The notes beneath the pieces were generated by a model. The model had not been told where the DNA came from and searched no databases. It saw only the letters and a list, made by a program, of their open reading frames with translations. A program made the translations under genes and the position numbers. A stretch of 58,299 bases of DNA, taken from the NCBI GenBank assembly GCA_021811565.1, contig JAJZOL010000243.1, positions 1-58,299 of the forward strand, read 5' to 3'. Below, piece after piece: positions 11,473 to 52,039 of the stretch (position 1 is its first letter; every line of letters begins with the position of its first letter). Source of the DNA: a bacterium (lineage in GTDB: Bacteria > Armatimonadota > Chthonomonadetes > Chthonomonadales > CAJBBX01).

Positions 11473-13311
11473 TTAATCTTCTTTGGGATAAACCACCTGC
11501 AGATGCAACTCCTCCAACTGTTTATCGTCGACCGGAGACGGGGCGTCCATAAGCGGATCGCTTCCGCCGCCGATTTTGGGAAATGCTATCACTTCCCTAA
11601 TATTGTCTGTGTCCATTAGGAACATCAACAAACGATCTATTCCTGGAGCAATACCGCCATGTGGCGGGGCGCCGTACTGAAACGCCTCAAGCATGTGACC
11701 GAAACGCTCCCTCTGGACTTCCTCGGATATGCCTAGGAGATCAAAGACCTTGCGTTGAATGTCCGAACGATGAATTCGAATGGATCCTGATGCCCACTCG
11801 GTCCCGTTGCATACCAGATCATAGCACACAGCGCGCACCTTGGCAGGATCTCTTTCCATAAACTCAATATCCTCTGGATGCGGCATGGTGAAGGGATGGT
11901 GCATAGCGTCCCAGCGTTTCTCCTCTTCATTCCATTCGACCAGCGGAAAATCCGTTATCCAACAAAAATGCAATACATTGGGATCGGCAAGCTGCAGCCT
12001 TTTACCGATCTCGTTACGCAACCTGCCGAGAACGTTCGCGACAACTTCGCTCTTATCGGCGCTGAACGCAACCAAGTCTCCGGGTTGGGCTTCGCATGCA
12101 CGAAGAATTCCAATCAACTCCTCCTCGGTAAGAAACTTGCCGATAGGGCCACGCACCATCAGTTCTCCAGCTTTTATGCGTTGGATCGACGCTCCACCCG
12201 TTCCAAGATTCTCCACAAGAAGATACGCAAGCCCCTTGGCGCCAAAGTTTTTGGCAAAAACAGTGAGATCGTCGATCTCTTTGCGGGATAACGACGCGCC
12301 TTGAGGATATCGCAGAGCTTTAACCTGTCCTCCGGAAGCCAAAGCCGATTTAAAAACTCCGCATTCCGTTTTACTTAATATATCACCCAAATCTATCAAT
12401 TCCAGCCCGAATCGGAGATCCGGCTTATCGTTGCCGAATCGTCTCATGGATTCATCATAGGTAAGCCTAGTGAAGGGTACGCTTCCCAGCCGTTTGGAGG
12501 ATAGCTTTTGAATGATTTCAATTGTGAGCCCCTCCGTTATTTGAAGGATATCCTCCTGGGTTACATAAGACATCTCCAAATCGAGTTGCGTGAACTCCGG
12601 CTGTCTATCCGCGCGCTGAGCTTCATCGCGAAAACAGCGAGCAATCTGATAATATCTTTCGCAACCTGCCACCATCAGTAATTGCTTGTATTGCTGAGGA
12701 GACTGGGGCAAGGCGTAAAACAAACCGGCTTCCAATCGGTAAGGAACAAGGTAGTCTCTCGCCCCTTCGGGAGTGGATTTGGTAATAATGGGAGTTTCAA
12801 TTTCGAGGAAGCCATGTCGGTTCAGATATTCGCGTATAAGATTCACAACATCGTGCCGAAGTTTGAGCATCGCCTGCATCTTGGGTCGGCGTAGATCAAG
12901 ATATCTGTACTTGAGACGCAACTCCTCGTTCACAGACGCCATTTGCGTTTCATCGCTTAACTGAAATGGCAACGGCTGACGGCTTGGGTTGAGGATGATC
13001 ATGTTATGGATATGGACCTCCACATCTCCCGTGGCGAGATTGGGGTTCTCCATGCCATCCATTCTTCGTTTTATTTCGCCCGTTACTGAGACGGAACATT
13101 CAGGACGGACGGACGATGCAAGCAGCACCATATCAGCCGATTCGGATGCATCCGCCCTAACCTGCACCATCCCCGTTCGATCACGCAAGTCGATGAAAAC
13201 CAAATCACCGTGATCACGCACGCTATTCGCCCACCCATTAAGAGTTACAATCTGTCCTATGTGTTCGGCGCGCGGGGCTCCGCAATAGATCGTTCTCTGC
13301 CAAGATTCCAA
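11473..13311 (-). CDS. aspS: aspartyl-tRNA synthetase
   Basis: RTIYCGAPRAEHIGQIVTLNGWANSVRDHGDLVFIDLRDRTG; FRDEAQRADRQPEFTQLD; GIAPGIDRLLMFLMD. The ORF track extends to 13407; an AAAGGAG precedes a TTG start near 13311. Confidence 0.95.
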   Translation of the reverse strand: MESWQRTIYCGAPRAEHIGQIVTLNGWANSVRDHGDLVFIDLRDRTGMVQVRADASESADMVLLASSVRPECSVSVTGEIKRRMDGMENPNLATGDVEVHIHNMIILNPSRQPLPFQLSDETQMASVNEELRLKYRYLDLRRPKMQAMLKLRHDVVNLIREYLNRHGFLEIETPIITKSTPEGARDYLVPYRLEAGLFYALPQSPQQYKQLLMVAGCERYYQIARCFRDEAQRADRQPEFTQLDLEMSYVTQEDILQITEGLTIEIIQKLSSKRLGSVPFTRLTYDESMRRFGNDKPDLRFGLELIDLGDILSKTECGVFKSALASGGQVKALRYPQGASLSRKEIDDLTVFAKNFGAKGLAYLLVENLGTGGASIQRIKAGELMVRGPIGKFLTEEELIGILRACEAQPGDLVAFSADKSEVVANVLGRLRNEIGKRLQLADPNVLHFCWITDFPLVEWNEEEKRWDAMHHPFTMPHPEDIEFMERDPAKVRAVCYDLVCNGTEWASGSIRIHRSDIQRKVFDLLGISEEVQRERFGHMLEAFQYGAPPHGGIAPGIDRLLMFLMDTDNIREVIAFPKIGGGSDPLMDAPSPVDDKQLEELHLQVVYPKED

Positions 13312-13423: not shown

Positions 13424-13511
13424 CAGGTAATTGCAAAATTCGTTTGAAGGTGTTTAGCCGAGCTTGAAATGAGCGATAATAGCCTCATTTTCTGAATTTT
13501 GCAATTACCTC
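13424..13511 (+). repeat. Family B palindromic MITE-like element, copy B1 (TSD TGAT)
   Basis: CAGGTAATTGCAAAATTC...GAATTTTGCAATTACCTC; internal GAAATGAGCGATAATAGCC shared with B2 and B3; flanked by TGAT (13420-13423 and 13512-13515). Confidence 0.9.
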
Positions 13512-16448: not shown

Positions 16449-17074
16449 GCGTGGGAGGCTCCTTTCAGGACTCGGATGGAAATCTAAGATTGGTCAGGAA
16501 TGAGAAATACGGATTTCATTACAACCTATGTACCAAAGATGTAATAAGACTAATTCCACAATTGCTTACATTATAGCATATTTCGCGAGTACGTTAGCCC
16601 CCTATTTCGAAGAGGGTGTGACCCAAATCATGCGGAGAAATACACGCCGCACACCTTGTCTCGCATTTCTTAATTATATTTGTGCGTTCATGAGGAGATT
16701 TCTCCTCCTCCGCTTCACCGTACCTCCCAGCTCACCTGCAAGATGAGCGGCGCGTAAACAAAGCATGGATACAGCGCCGTTCCCGCCCACATCATGCCCG
16801 GCGTCCTCATATCCCTATTCAAAACATGAAGTACGCTTCTTGCCCCGTCATCGTCAGGAAGCATCTCTCTCGCCTTTTTGCATCCCCTTGATCAAATGCG
16901 TGTTTTTCAACAGCGAGGCTGCTTCGCGCCAAATAAAAAGGAAACTCTCTTTTTTTACCAAACGAACCCAAGGATTCTCCGGAGAAGTGAGACCTCGCAC
17001 GACCGGGATGAGTGAAGCGATCTTATCCGATTCATTTTCCATCCATAGGTATGGTTGCAGCCTGTTTTACTCTC

Positions 17075-17118
17075 GGGTATGCCGGGTATCGGGTGTCGGG
17101 TATCGGGTATCGGGCATG
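17075..17118 (+). repeat. Heptamer array (CGGGTAT variants) inside repeat unit 1
   Basis: CGGGTAT-gc-CGGGTAT-CGGGTGT-CGGGTAT-CGGGTAT-CGGGCAT read directly. Confidence 0.9.
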
Positions 17119-17345
17119 TCCGGAAGTCCTTCAATTTGCCGATTAAGCGCTTGCGTCCCCTTCGTCAAATGCGTGTTTTTCAACAACGAGGCGGCTGCGC
17201 CAAATAAAAAAGGAAACTCTCTTTTTTTACCAAACGAACCCAAGGATTCTTCGGAGAAGTGAGACCTCGCACGACCGGGATGAGTGAAGCGATCCTATCC
17301 GATTCGTTTTCCATCCATAGGTATGGTTGCAGCCTGTTTTACTCT

Positions 17346-17389
17346 CGGGTATGCCGGGTATCGGGTGTCGGGTATCGGGTATCGGGCAT
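17346..17389 (+). repeat. Heptamer array (CGGGTAT variants) inside repeat unit 2
   Basis: Same six-heptamer array as 17075-17118. Confidence 0.9.
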
Positions 17390-17886
17390 ATCCGGAAGTC
17401 CTTCAATCTGCCGATTAAGCGCTTGCATCCCCTTGGTCAAATGCGTGTTTTTCAACAGCGAGGCGGTTGCGCCAAATAAAAAAGGAAACTCTCTTTTTTT
17501 ACCAAACGAACCCAAGGATTCTCCGGAGAAGTGAGACCTCGTACTACCGGGATGAGTTAAGCGATCTTATCTGATTCGTTTTCCATCCATAGGTATGGTT
17601 GCAGCCTGTTTTACTATCGTTTTTTCGTAAGGCGAGATCAAGCAACATAAAATTCATTTACTCCGTGAGCAACTGGATAGCGAGGAAGGCGCTTAGAAAG
17701 ACCATATCGCTTCTTTATATTAACCCTCGGACCGTAACGGCATATCAACTTAAAGTGAGGATGATAGCCAACCTATCAAAAATGGCGCACCGCGCATTAG
17801 AGGATGGCGACATATTTGCAATTTGCGGTGCCATTCAATCCTCTTCGTACTGAAGGTAAGCTTCCTGTTTTGGTTTTTTGACTATA

Positions 17887-17975
17887 CAGGTAATTGCAAA
17901 ATTCGATTTCAAAGTATTTCATCGAACGTGAAATGAGCGATAATAGCCACATCTCCTGAATTTTGCAATTACCTC
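17887..17975 (+). repeat. Family B palindromic MITE-like element, copy B2 (TSD TATA)
   Basis: CAGGTAATTGCAAAATTCGATTTC...CTGAATTTTGCAATTACCTC; TATA at 17883-17886 and 17976-17979. Confidence 0.92.
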
Positions 17976-18882: not shown

Positions 18883-20013
18883 TTACGGAAGTATCCTGAT
18901 GAAGACATCATTCGAATAGAGTAAACCCCTGTGTGTTAACCGGAAAGTGTCTCCATCCAACTCAGCCAACCCCTCGCTGATGAGTTCTCCAATCAACCCC
19001 GAATATCGTTGAAAAGGATCAATGGAGAATCGGTCTTGAATGGATTTTAGCGACACCCCGCTTCGAAGTCGAAGTCCAAGTATCAAAGTCTCCGATAGCG
19101 CATCCGCAGGAGAAAGAGTCTCTTCCTGTATTGCGAGAGGCTCCCTTTCATTCACCTTTCGTATGTAAGCCGCCGGGCGTTTTTCATTCATCCATCTGCG
19201 ACCACCTAAGTACGAGACGGCACCGGGGCCAAATCCAAGGTAATCCTCGTTCAGCCAATAGGTCAAATTATGCCTCGCTTGTTTCCCATGGCGACAAAAA
19301 TTTGAGACTTCGTAGTGCTCGTAACCGGCTTTGGTTAGTTGTTCGATCGCCATTTCGTACATCTCCAATTCAGTATCTTCGTCCGCCTGATGCAGTGTCT
19401 GGTTTCGATGCATCCTTTCAAACCTCGTTCCCTCCTCAATGCTCAAGGCGTATGTGGACATATGCTCGGGATTTATGTCGATGGCATTTAACAATGACAC
19501 CCTCCAATCTTCCAGCGATTGTTCCGGAAGTGAGAAAATCAGATCAAGGTTTATGTTATCGAATCCTGCGTTCCTGGCATATGCGATAGCCGCGATGGCA
19601 TCTTCGGAGGTATGTTGACGTTCCGCAATGCGGAGTATTCTATCGTCGAAAGACTGCACGCCAATGGATAAGCGATTGAAACCCCCTTGGCGCATCCCAT
19701 CAAATCGCTGCCTATCGGAATTGGCAGGATTGCTTTCAGAAGTGATCTCCGCATCCTTAGCGAAAGGCAAAACATCTCTGACTGCATTGAGAATCGAATT
19801 TAGCTGCTCAGCCTTTAAATATGTGGGGGTTCCCCCCCCGAAAAACACGGAAGCCACCTCTCTCTCTAACCCGCGCACGCCTTGAATCTCCCGTTGAATG
19901 GCCTCGCAGAAATCCCTCGTCAGGAAATCCAAGCCAGCGTACGAGTTAAAGTCACAGTAGGAGCATTTATGGATGCAGAACGGGATGTGAATGTAGACAG
20001 CGATCGGATTCAT
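18883..20013 (-). CDS. hemW: HemW-like radical SAM protein (coproporphyrinogen III oxidase-like)
   Basis: AVYIHIPFCIHKCSYCDFNSY CxxxCxxC; FFGGGTPTYL; ISIGVQSFDD-like RLSIGVQSFDDRIL. The ORF track extends to 20082; the start is likely MNPIAVYIHIPF. Confidence 0.93.
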   Translation of the reverse strand: MNPIAVYIHIPFCIHKCSYCDFNSYAGLDFLTRDFCEAIQREIQGVRGLEREVASVFFGGGTPTYLKAEQLNSILNAVRDVLPFAKDAEITSESNPANSDRQRFDGMRQGGFNRLSIGVQSFDDRILRIAERQHTSEDAIAAIAYARNAGFDNINLDLIFSLPEQSLEDWRVSLLNAIDINPEHMSTYALSIEEGTRFERMHRNQTLHQADEDTELEMYEMAIEQLTKAGYEHYEVSNFCRHGKQARHNLTYWLNEDYLGFGPGAVSYLGGRRWMNEKRPAAYIRKVNEREPLAIQEETLSPADALSETLILGLRLRSGVSLKSIQDRFSIDPFQRYSGLIGELISEGLAELDGDTFRLTHRGLLYSNDVFIRILP

Positions 20014-20097
20014 GTTTTTTTGCGTGCGCCTCATATATGAATGCGGGGAAAGGCAAGCCATCAAGAGTGCAAATTCCGCCATTTACTAACAATAGAG

Positions 20098-20216
20098 GAG
20101 TGTGTTGCACAAATGTATTTGAACCGCACACTGATACAATATATGCATATTCAAGCCATTATATTACCAATATATTGTATGTGCACTGATTCTGATTATA
20201 TTTATGCAACACACTC
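20098..20216 (+). repeat. Family A MITE-like element, copy A1 (119 bp, TSD AGAG)
   Basis: Terminal inverted repeats GAGTGTGTTGCAyAAATrTA; flanked by AGAG (20094-20097 and 20217-20220). About 94% identical by eye to the reverse complement of 51921-52039. Confidence 0.92.
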
Positions 20217-20217
20217 A

Positions 20218-20306
20218 GAGGTAATTGCAAAATTCAGGAAATGTGGCTATTATCGCTCATTTCACGTTCGGTGATATACTTGGAAATTGAATTTTGCAAT
20301 TACCTG
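20218..20306 (-). repeat. Family B palindromic MITE-like element, copy B3 (left end abutted by A1; ancestral TSD AATA)
   Basis: GAGGTAATTGCAAAATTC...GGCTATTATCGCTCATTTC...GAATTTTGCAATTACCTG is the reverse complement of the B2-type sequence; AATA at 20091-20094 and 20307-20310 bracket A1 plus B3. Confidence 0.9.
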
Positions 20307-20445
20307 AATAAGCTGGATTTATTATGTTATTTTACTTCAATATAATGCACGGGGAAAGCCATGAATGCAAAACTGATGTATAATAAAGGATACTTATCCG
20401 ATATATTCAGTCACATATGGCTTTGGCAGGAAAGCGAGATAGAAA

Positions 20446-22029
20446 ATGGCGAACAAGGTGGAACAACTCAAAAAAGAAAAGGATGGATTAGATTTATTTC
20501 CGGATATTCTGCGCTATAGCAAGCTTGGTTACGAATCAATTCCATCAGATGATCTTGCAAGGATGCGATGGTTCGGCATATATGAACAGAAACCGCGAAA
20601 CGGGCATTTCATGATGCGGGTGAAAATTCCCGGCGGGGCGATTAATTCCAATCAATGGAGAACTTTGGGGGAAATTTCACGTGATTTCGGCGGCGGCATA
20701 GCGGATATCACCACCAGGCAAAATGTGCAGTTTCATTGGATCACTATAGAGGTCATCCCGGAGATTATCCATAGACTCAACTCCGTTGGCATCACAACAT
20801 TGGGCGCTTGCGGCGACATTCCTCGAAACATTGCGGGATGTCCCGTAGCAGGCATAGACCCGGATGAGCTTTACGATTGCACGAAGATAATTGAGGAAGT
20901 GAATCATTTCTTCGTGGGAAATAAAGATTTTTCAGATTTGCCTCGCAAATTCAAAATAACCATTGCGGGATGCAGGCATCAATGCCATCAGCCGGAAATT
21001 AACGACATAGGCATATCCGCCGTAAGGAAACCAAATGGGGATATTGGCTTCGAAGTCAGAGTGGGTGGCGGTCTTTCCACACAGCCACGCTTCTCGCGCA
21101 AATTGGATGTCTGCCTGAAACCTGATCAGATTAAAGATGCATGCCGGGTGATTGCGGAGATATTTCGCGATTACGGTTACAGGGACAGACGAAATCACGC
21201 GCGCTTGAAGTTCCTTGTGGATGACTGGGGCTCGGAGCGTTTCTTGGACAAGATGATCGAAAAACTGAGTTGGAAGCCAGATCCGGCTGTGGATTCCAAT
21301 TCACCAAAGCGAATTTATGCAGACCATATAGGGGTGCACACGCAAAAACAGCACGGTCTTCATTGGATAGGGGTTGCGATCCTTACCGGACGCATGACTT
21401 CCGAGCAGATATTAAAAACGGCAGCGATTGCGGAGAAATACTGCGATGGATCACTACGCACTACAAACCAACAGAATCTCCTGCTAACGAATATCACTGA
21501 AGACGATCTCACAGATGTTCAAACCGAGTTGGAGGCTGTGGGTTTGAATTGGGATGTGTCCAAATTCCGCCGATCCGCCCTTTCATGCACGGGAACGGAG
21601 TTTTGCAACCTCGCAATCACCGAGACCAAGCTCCGTTTGAAGGAGATAATCGGCTATTTGGAGGATAAGTTGGATTGGGACGAGGACATACGTATCAATT
21701 TAAACGGGTGTCCTAACGCTTGCGGACAGCATCACATCGGCGACATCGGTTTGCAAGGCGCATTAACAATTGTCAATGGAACCAAGACCGAAGCCTATGA
21801 TATCTGTCTCGGGGGAAGGTTAGGAAGCAATGCAAAGTTTACCAGACCCATTAGACGAAAGATCCCTGCGGATAATGTAAAATATGCTTTGGAGAACCTC
21901 CTTCTAACCTATCAACATGAGCGAACGGAGAATGACACTTTCTCCGACTTCGTGGATAGACATACGGATGATGAGTTGGGACAATTTTTGGGAGATAACA
22001 TCGGTGTGGTTTTAGCGGAAGAAAGTTGA
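20446..22029 (+). CDS. ferredoxin-dependent nitrite/sulfite reductase (siroheme, 4Fe-4S)
   Basis: TTRQNVQFHWI; ACGDIPRNIAGCPVAG; siroheme/4Fe-4S motif SCTGTEFCNLA...NLNGCPNACGQHHIGDIGLQG. Confidence 0.92.
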   Translation: MANKVEQLKKEKDGLDLFPDILRYSKLGYESIPSDDLARMRWFGIYEQKPRNGHFMMRVKIPGGAINSNQWRTLGEISRDFGGGIADITTRQNVQFHWITIEVIPEIIHRLNSVGITTLGACGDIPRNIAGCPVAGIDPDELYDCTKIIEEVNHFFVGNKDFSDLPRKFKITIAGCRHQCHQPEINDIGISAVRKPNGDIGFEVRVGGGLSTQPRFSRKLDVCLKPDQIKDACRVIAEIFRDYGYRDRRNHARLKFLVDDWGSERFLDKMIEKLSWKPDPAVDSNSPKRIYADHIGVHTQKQHGLHWIGVAILTGRMTSEQILKTAAIAEKYCDGSLRTTNQQNLLLTNITEDDLTDVQTELEAVGLNWDVSKFRRSALSCTGTEFCNLAITETKLRLKEIIGYLEDKLDWDEDIRINLNGCPNACGQHHIGDIGLQGALTIVNGTKTEAYDICLGGRLGSNAKFTRPIRRKIPADNVKYALENLLLTYQHERTENDTFSDFVDRHTDDELGQFLGDNIGVVLAEES

Positions 22030-51920: not shown

Positions 51921-52039
51921 GAGTGTGTTGCGTAAATACAATCAGAATCAGTGCGCATACAATATATTGGATATATAATGGCTTTAATATGCATATGTTG
52001 TATCAGTGTGCGGTTCAAATACATTTGTGCAACACACTC
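51921..52039 (-). repeat. Family A MITE-like element, copy A2 (119 bp, TSD CATG)
   Basis: Inverted copy of 20098-20216 (about 7 mismatches by eye); flanked by CATG (51917-51920 and 52040-52043). Confidence 0.93.

Follow-up and report, generated by a model that had tools for sequence, protein, structure and literature searches.

Bacterial MITEs that are moved in trans by transposases of the IS5/IS1182 type are characterized by a short non-coding body, near-perfect terminal inverted repeats, duplications of fixed length, many copies and ends in common with a resident insertion sequence (IS). The two families described here, A and B, share these traits, with the common IS ends applying to B and probably also to A, and differ in the phylum of their host, Armatimonadota. 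A limited search of the open-access literature found no earlier description of either family.

Nests of small elements are likewise known. In pneumococci, BOX, RUP and SPRITE include small repeats nested in others (PMC3049150), in Haloquadratum MITEs and SMRs have inserted into PATEs, one class of host element being strongly preferred (PMC3119063), and in Coxiella IS1111 has inserted into QMITE2 (PMC10969869). The locus analyzed here, in which copy A1 of family A is combined with copy B3 of family B, resembles these nests in that one small mobile repeat lies inside another, and the nested insertion itself is ordinary in kind. Its unusual trait is a hotspot, a preferred point defined to the single nucleotide at the host MITE's terminal inverted repeat, which distinguishes it from the nests mentioned above, as do the ordinary 4-bp duplication and the preservation of the host element. 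In the inverted-repeat targeting of IS30 and IS911, too, insertion takes place beside another element's terminal repeat; this targeting is characterized by IR-IR junctions and strict orientation (PMC9333248). In contrast, family A occurs in both orientations, at both B ends and with 4-bp duplications, and its junctions are not of the IR-IR kind. The locus thus contributes two families of small mobile elements from Armatimonadota whose relative age is clear, an empty site that is proven, a probable parent IS for family B, and a testable case in which one mini-element employs another's end as its landing hotspot.

The composite locus and its two repeat families

The window, a stretch of 58,299 nt from an uncultured bacterium of the Armatimonadota, carries a composite that is bracketed by AATA (20091..20094 and 20307..20310) and contains A1, which is in turn bracketed by AGAG (20094..20097 and 20217..20220); these duplications have no assigned strand. 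A1 (20098..20216, plus strand) is a MITE of 119 bp with three differences from the family consensus. Its ends form perfect 12-bp inverted repeats, GAGTGTGTTGCA on the left (20098..20109, plus strand) and TGCAACACACTC on the right (20205..20216, minus strand). B3 (20218..20306, plus strand) is an 89-bp MITE that differs from its consensus at two positions and is identical to a copy on contig C8. The left AGAG consists of the last base of AATA and the first three bases of B3, and the GAG of the right AGAG likewise represents the first three bases of B3. Since the duplicated GAG rebuilds these bases, B3 is still complete after the arrival of A1. The immediate flanks of B3, CTCA and AATA, do not match, but deletion of A1 and one AGAG in silico yields an intact B3 with AATA on each side, exactly the restored sequence that the earlier note had predicted; the positions it had given for AATA, AGAG, A1 and B3 are correct to the base. 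Further copies in the window are one of family A (51921..52039, minus strand) and two of family B, one flanked by a TATA duplication (17887..17975, minus strand) and one of 88 bp flanked by ATCA (13424..13511, minus strand).

Sequence searches of the genome to which the window belongs (4.0 Mb, 248 contigs) revealed 23 copies of family A, at least 64 distinct copies of family B (sampled) and 126 exact matches to the B end. The ends of both families are fixed from copy to copy. A perfect 4-bp duplication flanks 19 of the 23 A copies, compared with a mean of 1.1 and a maximum of 6 duplications in 10,000 sets of shuffled flanks, which excludes an origin of the A duplications by chance; duplications of 3, 5, 6 or 7 bp were absent from the flanks of all 23 copies. 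This recurrence also upholds the assignment of AGAG as target duplication of A1. Of 64 B copies, 44 are flanked by perfect 4-bp duplications, among which AATA is the most frequent. The mean divergence from the consensus amounts to 3.4% for A and 6.3% for B (50 ungapped copies), and both elements fold into long hairpins (z about -6), as expected of inverted repeats. Family A is thus multicopy, 119 bp long and non-coding, with 12-bp perfect terminal inverted repeats and a 4-bp duplication; family B is multicopy with terminal inverted repeats and a 4-bp target duplication. A and B are two separate non-autonomous inverted-repeat (MITE) families. No Rfam match was found between positions 12500 and 22500.

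Near contig ends, B copies at C102:19323-20315 and C173:13400-13879 have flanks that are mutually reverse-complementary or recur inverted, which probably reflects a fold-back of the assembly at the B hairpin.

Candidate parent elements

The ends of B, including the asymmetry between a left GAG and a right CAG, recur on a 1.4-kb element of contig C211 (C211:38-1435). Its transposase comprises PF05598 (DUF772) and PF01609 (DDE_Tnp_1), both over cut-off. In addition, the NCBIfam models of IS5 and IS1182 match the two halves of the transposase, far below their cut-offs. The 1.4-kb element, the probable parent of B, can be classed as an IS of the IS5/IS1182 type that scores below the curated family-model cut-offs of IS5 or IS1182 proper. 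The C211 copy is not flanked by a clean 4-bp duplication. A related element with B ends, here with GAG on both sides, surrounds a transposase on contig C7 of G001, the only genome of the same genus among those compared. One in-frame TAG is present in the C211 transposase (C211:107-1225), and one TAG also in the copy of G001. Related ISs of other phyla have ends such as GAGCCTCTTGCAAAA; as read by eye, several are flanked by perfect 4-bp duplications (AGTA, TTAA, TCAA, TGTT) and others are not. A literature search with the literal end GAGCCTCTTGCAAAA returned no paper.

The ends of A also fit GAG-N4-TTGC. An IS end, GAGTGTGTTGCGCAAT, is located at three contig ends and shares its first 11 bases with A; these are fragments without a transposase in the pieces read. 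At two other contig ends the IS start is represented by GAGCCTGTTGCATAAA. In short-read assemblies, repeated ISs often lose their body. The IS that begins with GAGTGTGTTGCGCAAT is the likeliest driver of A, a candidate known from its end fragments. A second IS, with the end GAGCCTGTTGCATAAAT and an ORF starting ATGTCCTACAATTTCATTGA, is cut by the contig ends of C144 and C235.

Several other candidates were rejected. In an exact search with the 12-bp A end for an autonomous parent, all hits but one were situated inside A copies, and the exception (C121:3033), which lies inside an ORF, was taken as a chance match. Transposases that match PF01609 on C119 and C214 are not enclosed by ends of the A or B type, and the protein on C119 fits the IS1634 model. 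On C163 and C135, B ends that lie 1.1-3.2 kb apart belong to separate B copies, and host ORFs occupy the interval; for a pair of this class on C21 the mapping covered the B matches.

Family A at the ends of family B

Four of the 23 A copies are located in or on a B copy, namely A1 and the copies on contigs C117, C70 and C57. On C117, A sits on a B end with the duplication CTCT, which is AGAG on the other strand, and removal of the 119-bp copy leaves B with TATA on both sides. On C70 it occupies the other B end between ACGG and ACAG, a duplication with one mismatch, and the outer duplication is again TATA. These two restorations were read from printed flanks, using the 119-bp copy for C117 and the ACAG copy for C70. 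The copy on C57 lies inside B and is flanked by TGAT. In A1, C117 and C70 the place of insertion is identical, comprising one flanking base and three bases of B, and the duplications of the three B copies hit at their ends all finish in ATA. This B-end position is a recurrent target of A and not the site of a single accident; it is hit more commonly than chance would allow, on the strength of three events that were recognized after the fact. Because A lands in either orientation, at either B end and with a normal duplication, the events look like insertion into a hotspot.

What creates the hotspot can be explained in two ways. The chances are about even that it reflects a plain effect of the target motif, with B ends offering A the combination of AT-rich intergenic DNA and AT-N4-AT. 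A weak palindromic preference for AT-N4-AT is common to the 19 other A sites and is partly satisfied by the B-end place; by this motif a typical B-end position outscores about 90% of non-coding positions, and AT is correctly placed at all three B ends hit. However, given a 10-fold motif advantage, 126 B ends and an assumed non-coding share of 12% as target space, the expectation is 0.06 hits versus the three seen (P about 4e-5, or about 0.002 if one hit defines the place), and three higher-scoring motif positions in the B-end profile received no hit. Alternatively, and here we are more tentative, the A transposase may recognize the terminal repeat of B, GAG-N4-TTGCA, which is common to both ends, and thereby place A at one fixed nucleotide. 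One MITE family would then home in on the ends of another while sparing the host MITE.

Order of insertion and gene context

Taken as a whole, the 220 bp are very probably made up by two successive transpositions, B first and then A. This order follows from the nesting of the duplications, from the presence of B but not of A in G001, and from the lower divergence of A. The earlier note had read the same order, A1 after B3, from the raw sequence, to all appearances correctly: the duplications, the empty site, the family ages and the three other cases of A in or on B all agree with it. The proposed succession draws on one empty allele and on internal logic.

The empty allele is found in G001, where the corresponding spacer contains neither A1 nor B3 and carries AATA once, reading ...CCATTTCCCAACAATAAACTGGATTT...; the two sides of the insert align with 88% and 92% identity. 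The single AATA, together with its restoration upon removal of A1, confirms AATA as the target duplication of B3, as had been proposed. Since the site is empty, both elements would have arrived after the split from G001, precise loss being less likely. B itself is abundant in G001, with at least 40 matches listed. Family A is absent from G001 and the other relatives searched, where a weak 22-bp match in G012 does not represent a copy, and none of 290 other genomes of the phylum contains the 16-bp A end. Of the two alleles that the earlier note had expected among relatives, the one with neither element is therefore present in G001, but none of the genomes searched showed an intermediate with B3 and no A1.

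Contig C33 of G001 carries a B copy where the genome of the window is uninterrupted (C117:12178-12186), which indicates that B has been mobile either in both lineages or, since the split, in G001. As a B-without-A allele of the nested C117 locus this copy was rejected: the nearest B of G001 lies about 1.9 kb away, and there the present genome is uninterrupted.

It is very improbable that A1 was resident first and B3 then inserted beside it. The two elements abut, and adjacency by itself gives no order; however, it is the whole composite, and not B3 with its mismatched flanks, that is bracketed by the AATA found singly in the empty site, and the right AGAG of A1 would have to equal the B terminus by coincidence. 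Moreover, at two more loci (C117 and C70) A occupies the same place on B, and the outer TATA of B is intact once A is removed. Scarcely credible is a fixed A1/B3 repeat moved as a unit, which the earlier note had named as grounds for giving up its order: although A is arranged in this geometry on a B end at two other loci, 19 of the 23 A copies are without a B in the flanks examined (up to 1.5 kb a side), 16 of these 19 with a perfect duplication of their own, most B copies are without A, the window and C117 do not agree in how A is oriented to B, C70 involves the other B end, and the B copies of the three A-on-B loci differ in sequence.

With B first and A second, the following course of events can be proposed. 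A B MITE would have entered AATA in the spacer once the species had separated from its sister, its transposition in trans being probably due to the transposase of the 1.4-kb IS5/IS1182-type element with which it has common ends. Subsequently, an A MITE would have inserted through a 4-bp staggered cut over A-GAG, the last duplication base plus the first three of B3, so that AGAG was duplicated and B3 remained intact. Family A probably uses a related transposase, as suggested by the GAG-N4-TTGC fit of its ends and by the genomic IS starting with the same 11 bases. B ends whose duplication finishes in ATA come close to its weakly preferred AT-N4-AT (AT-AGAG-GT), and this match, perhaps with an extra attraction to B ends, may give rise to the hotspot position.

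The insert is situated, as had been noted, in the divergent spacer between hemW and a nitrite/sulfite reductase gene, upstream of the probable start of the former and of the latter. The gene hemW (18883..20013, minus strand) encodes a radical SAM heme chaperone and matches TIGR00539 over cut-off. Its probable start is 20013 and not 20082, the start of the longest ORF, because, in comparison with G001, the latter is on the far side of a 1-bp indel. The reductase gene (20446..22029, plus strand) is NirA-like; its best NCBIfam model, ferredoxin-nitrite reductase, scores below cut-off. The DNA from the insert to the nirA-like start is conserved in G001, so that the core promoter of this gene probably lies outside the insert. 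A promoter scan gave no more signals than shuffled sequences, and any effect of the insertion on hemW or the nirA-like gene would be a matter of inference. Elsewhere in the window, a 272-bp unit is repeated in tandem between a yebC-like and a plsY-like gene (positions 16878-17750), the further copies matching the first at 97% and 62%.
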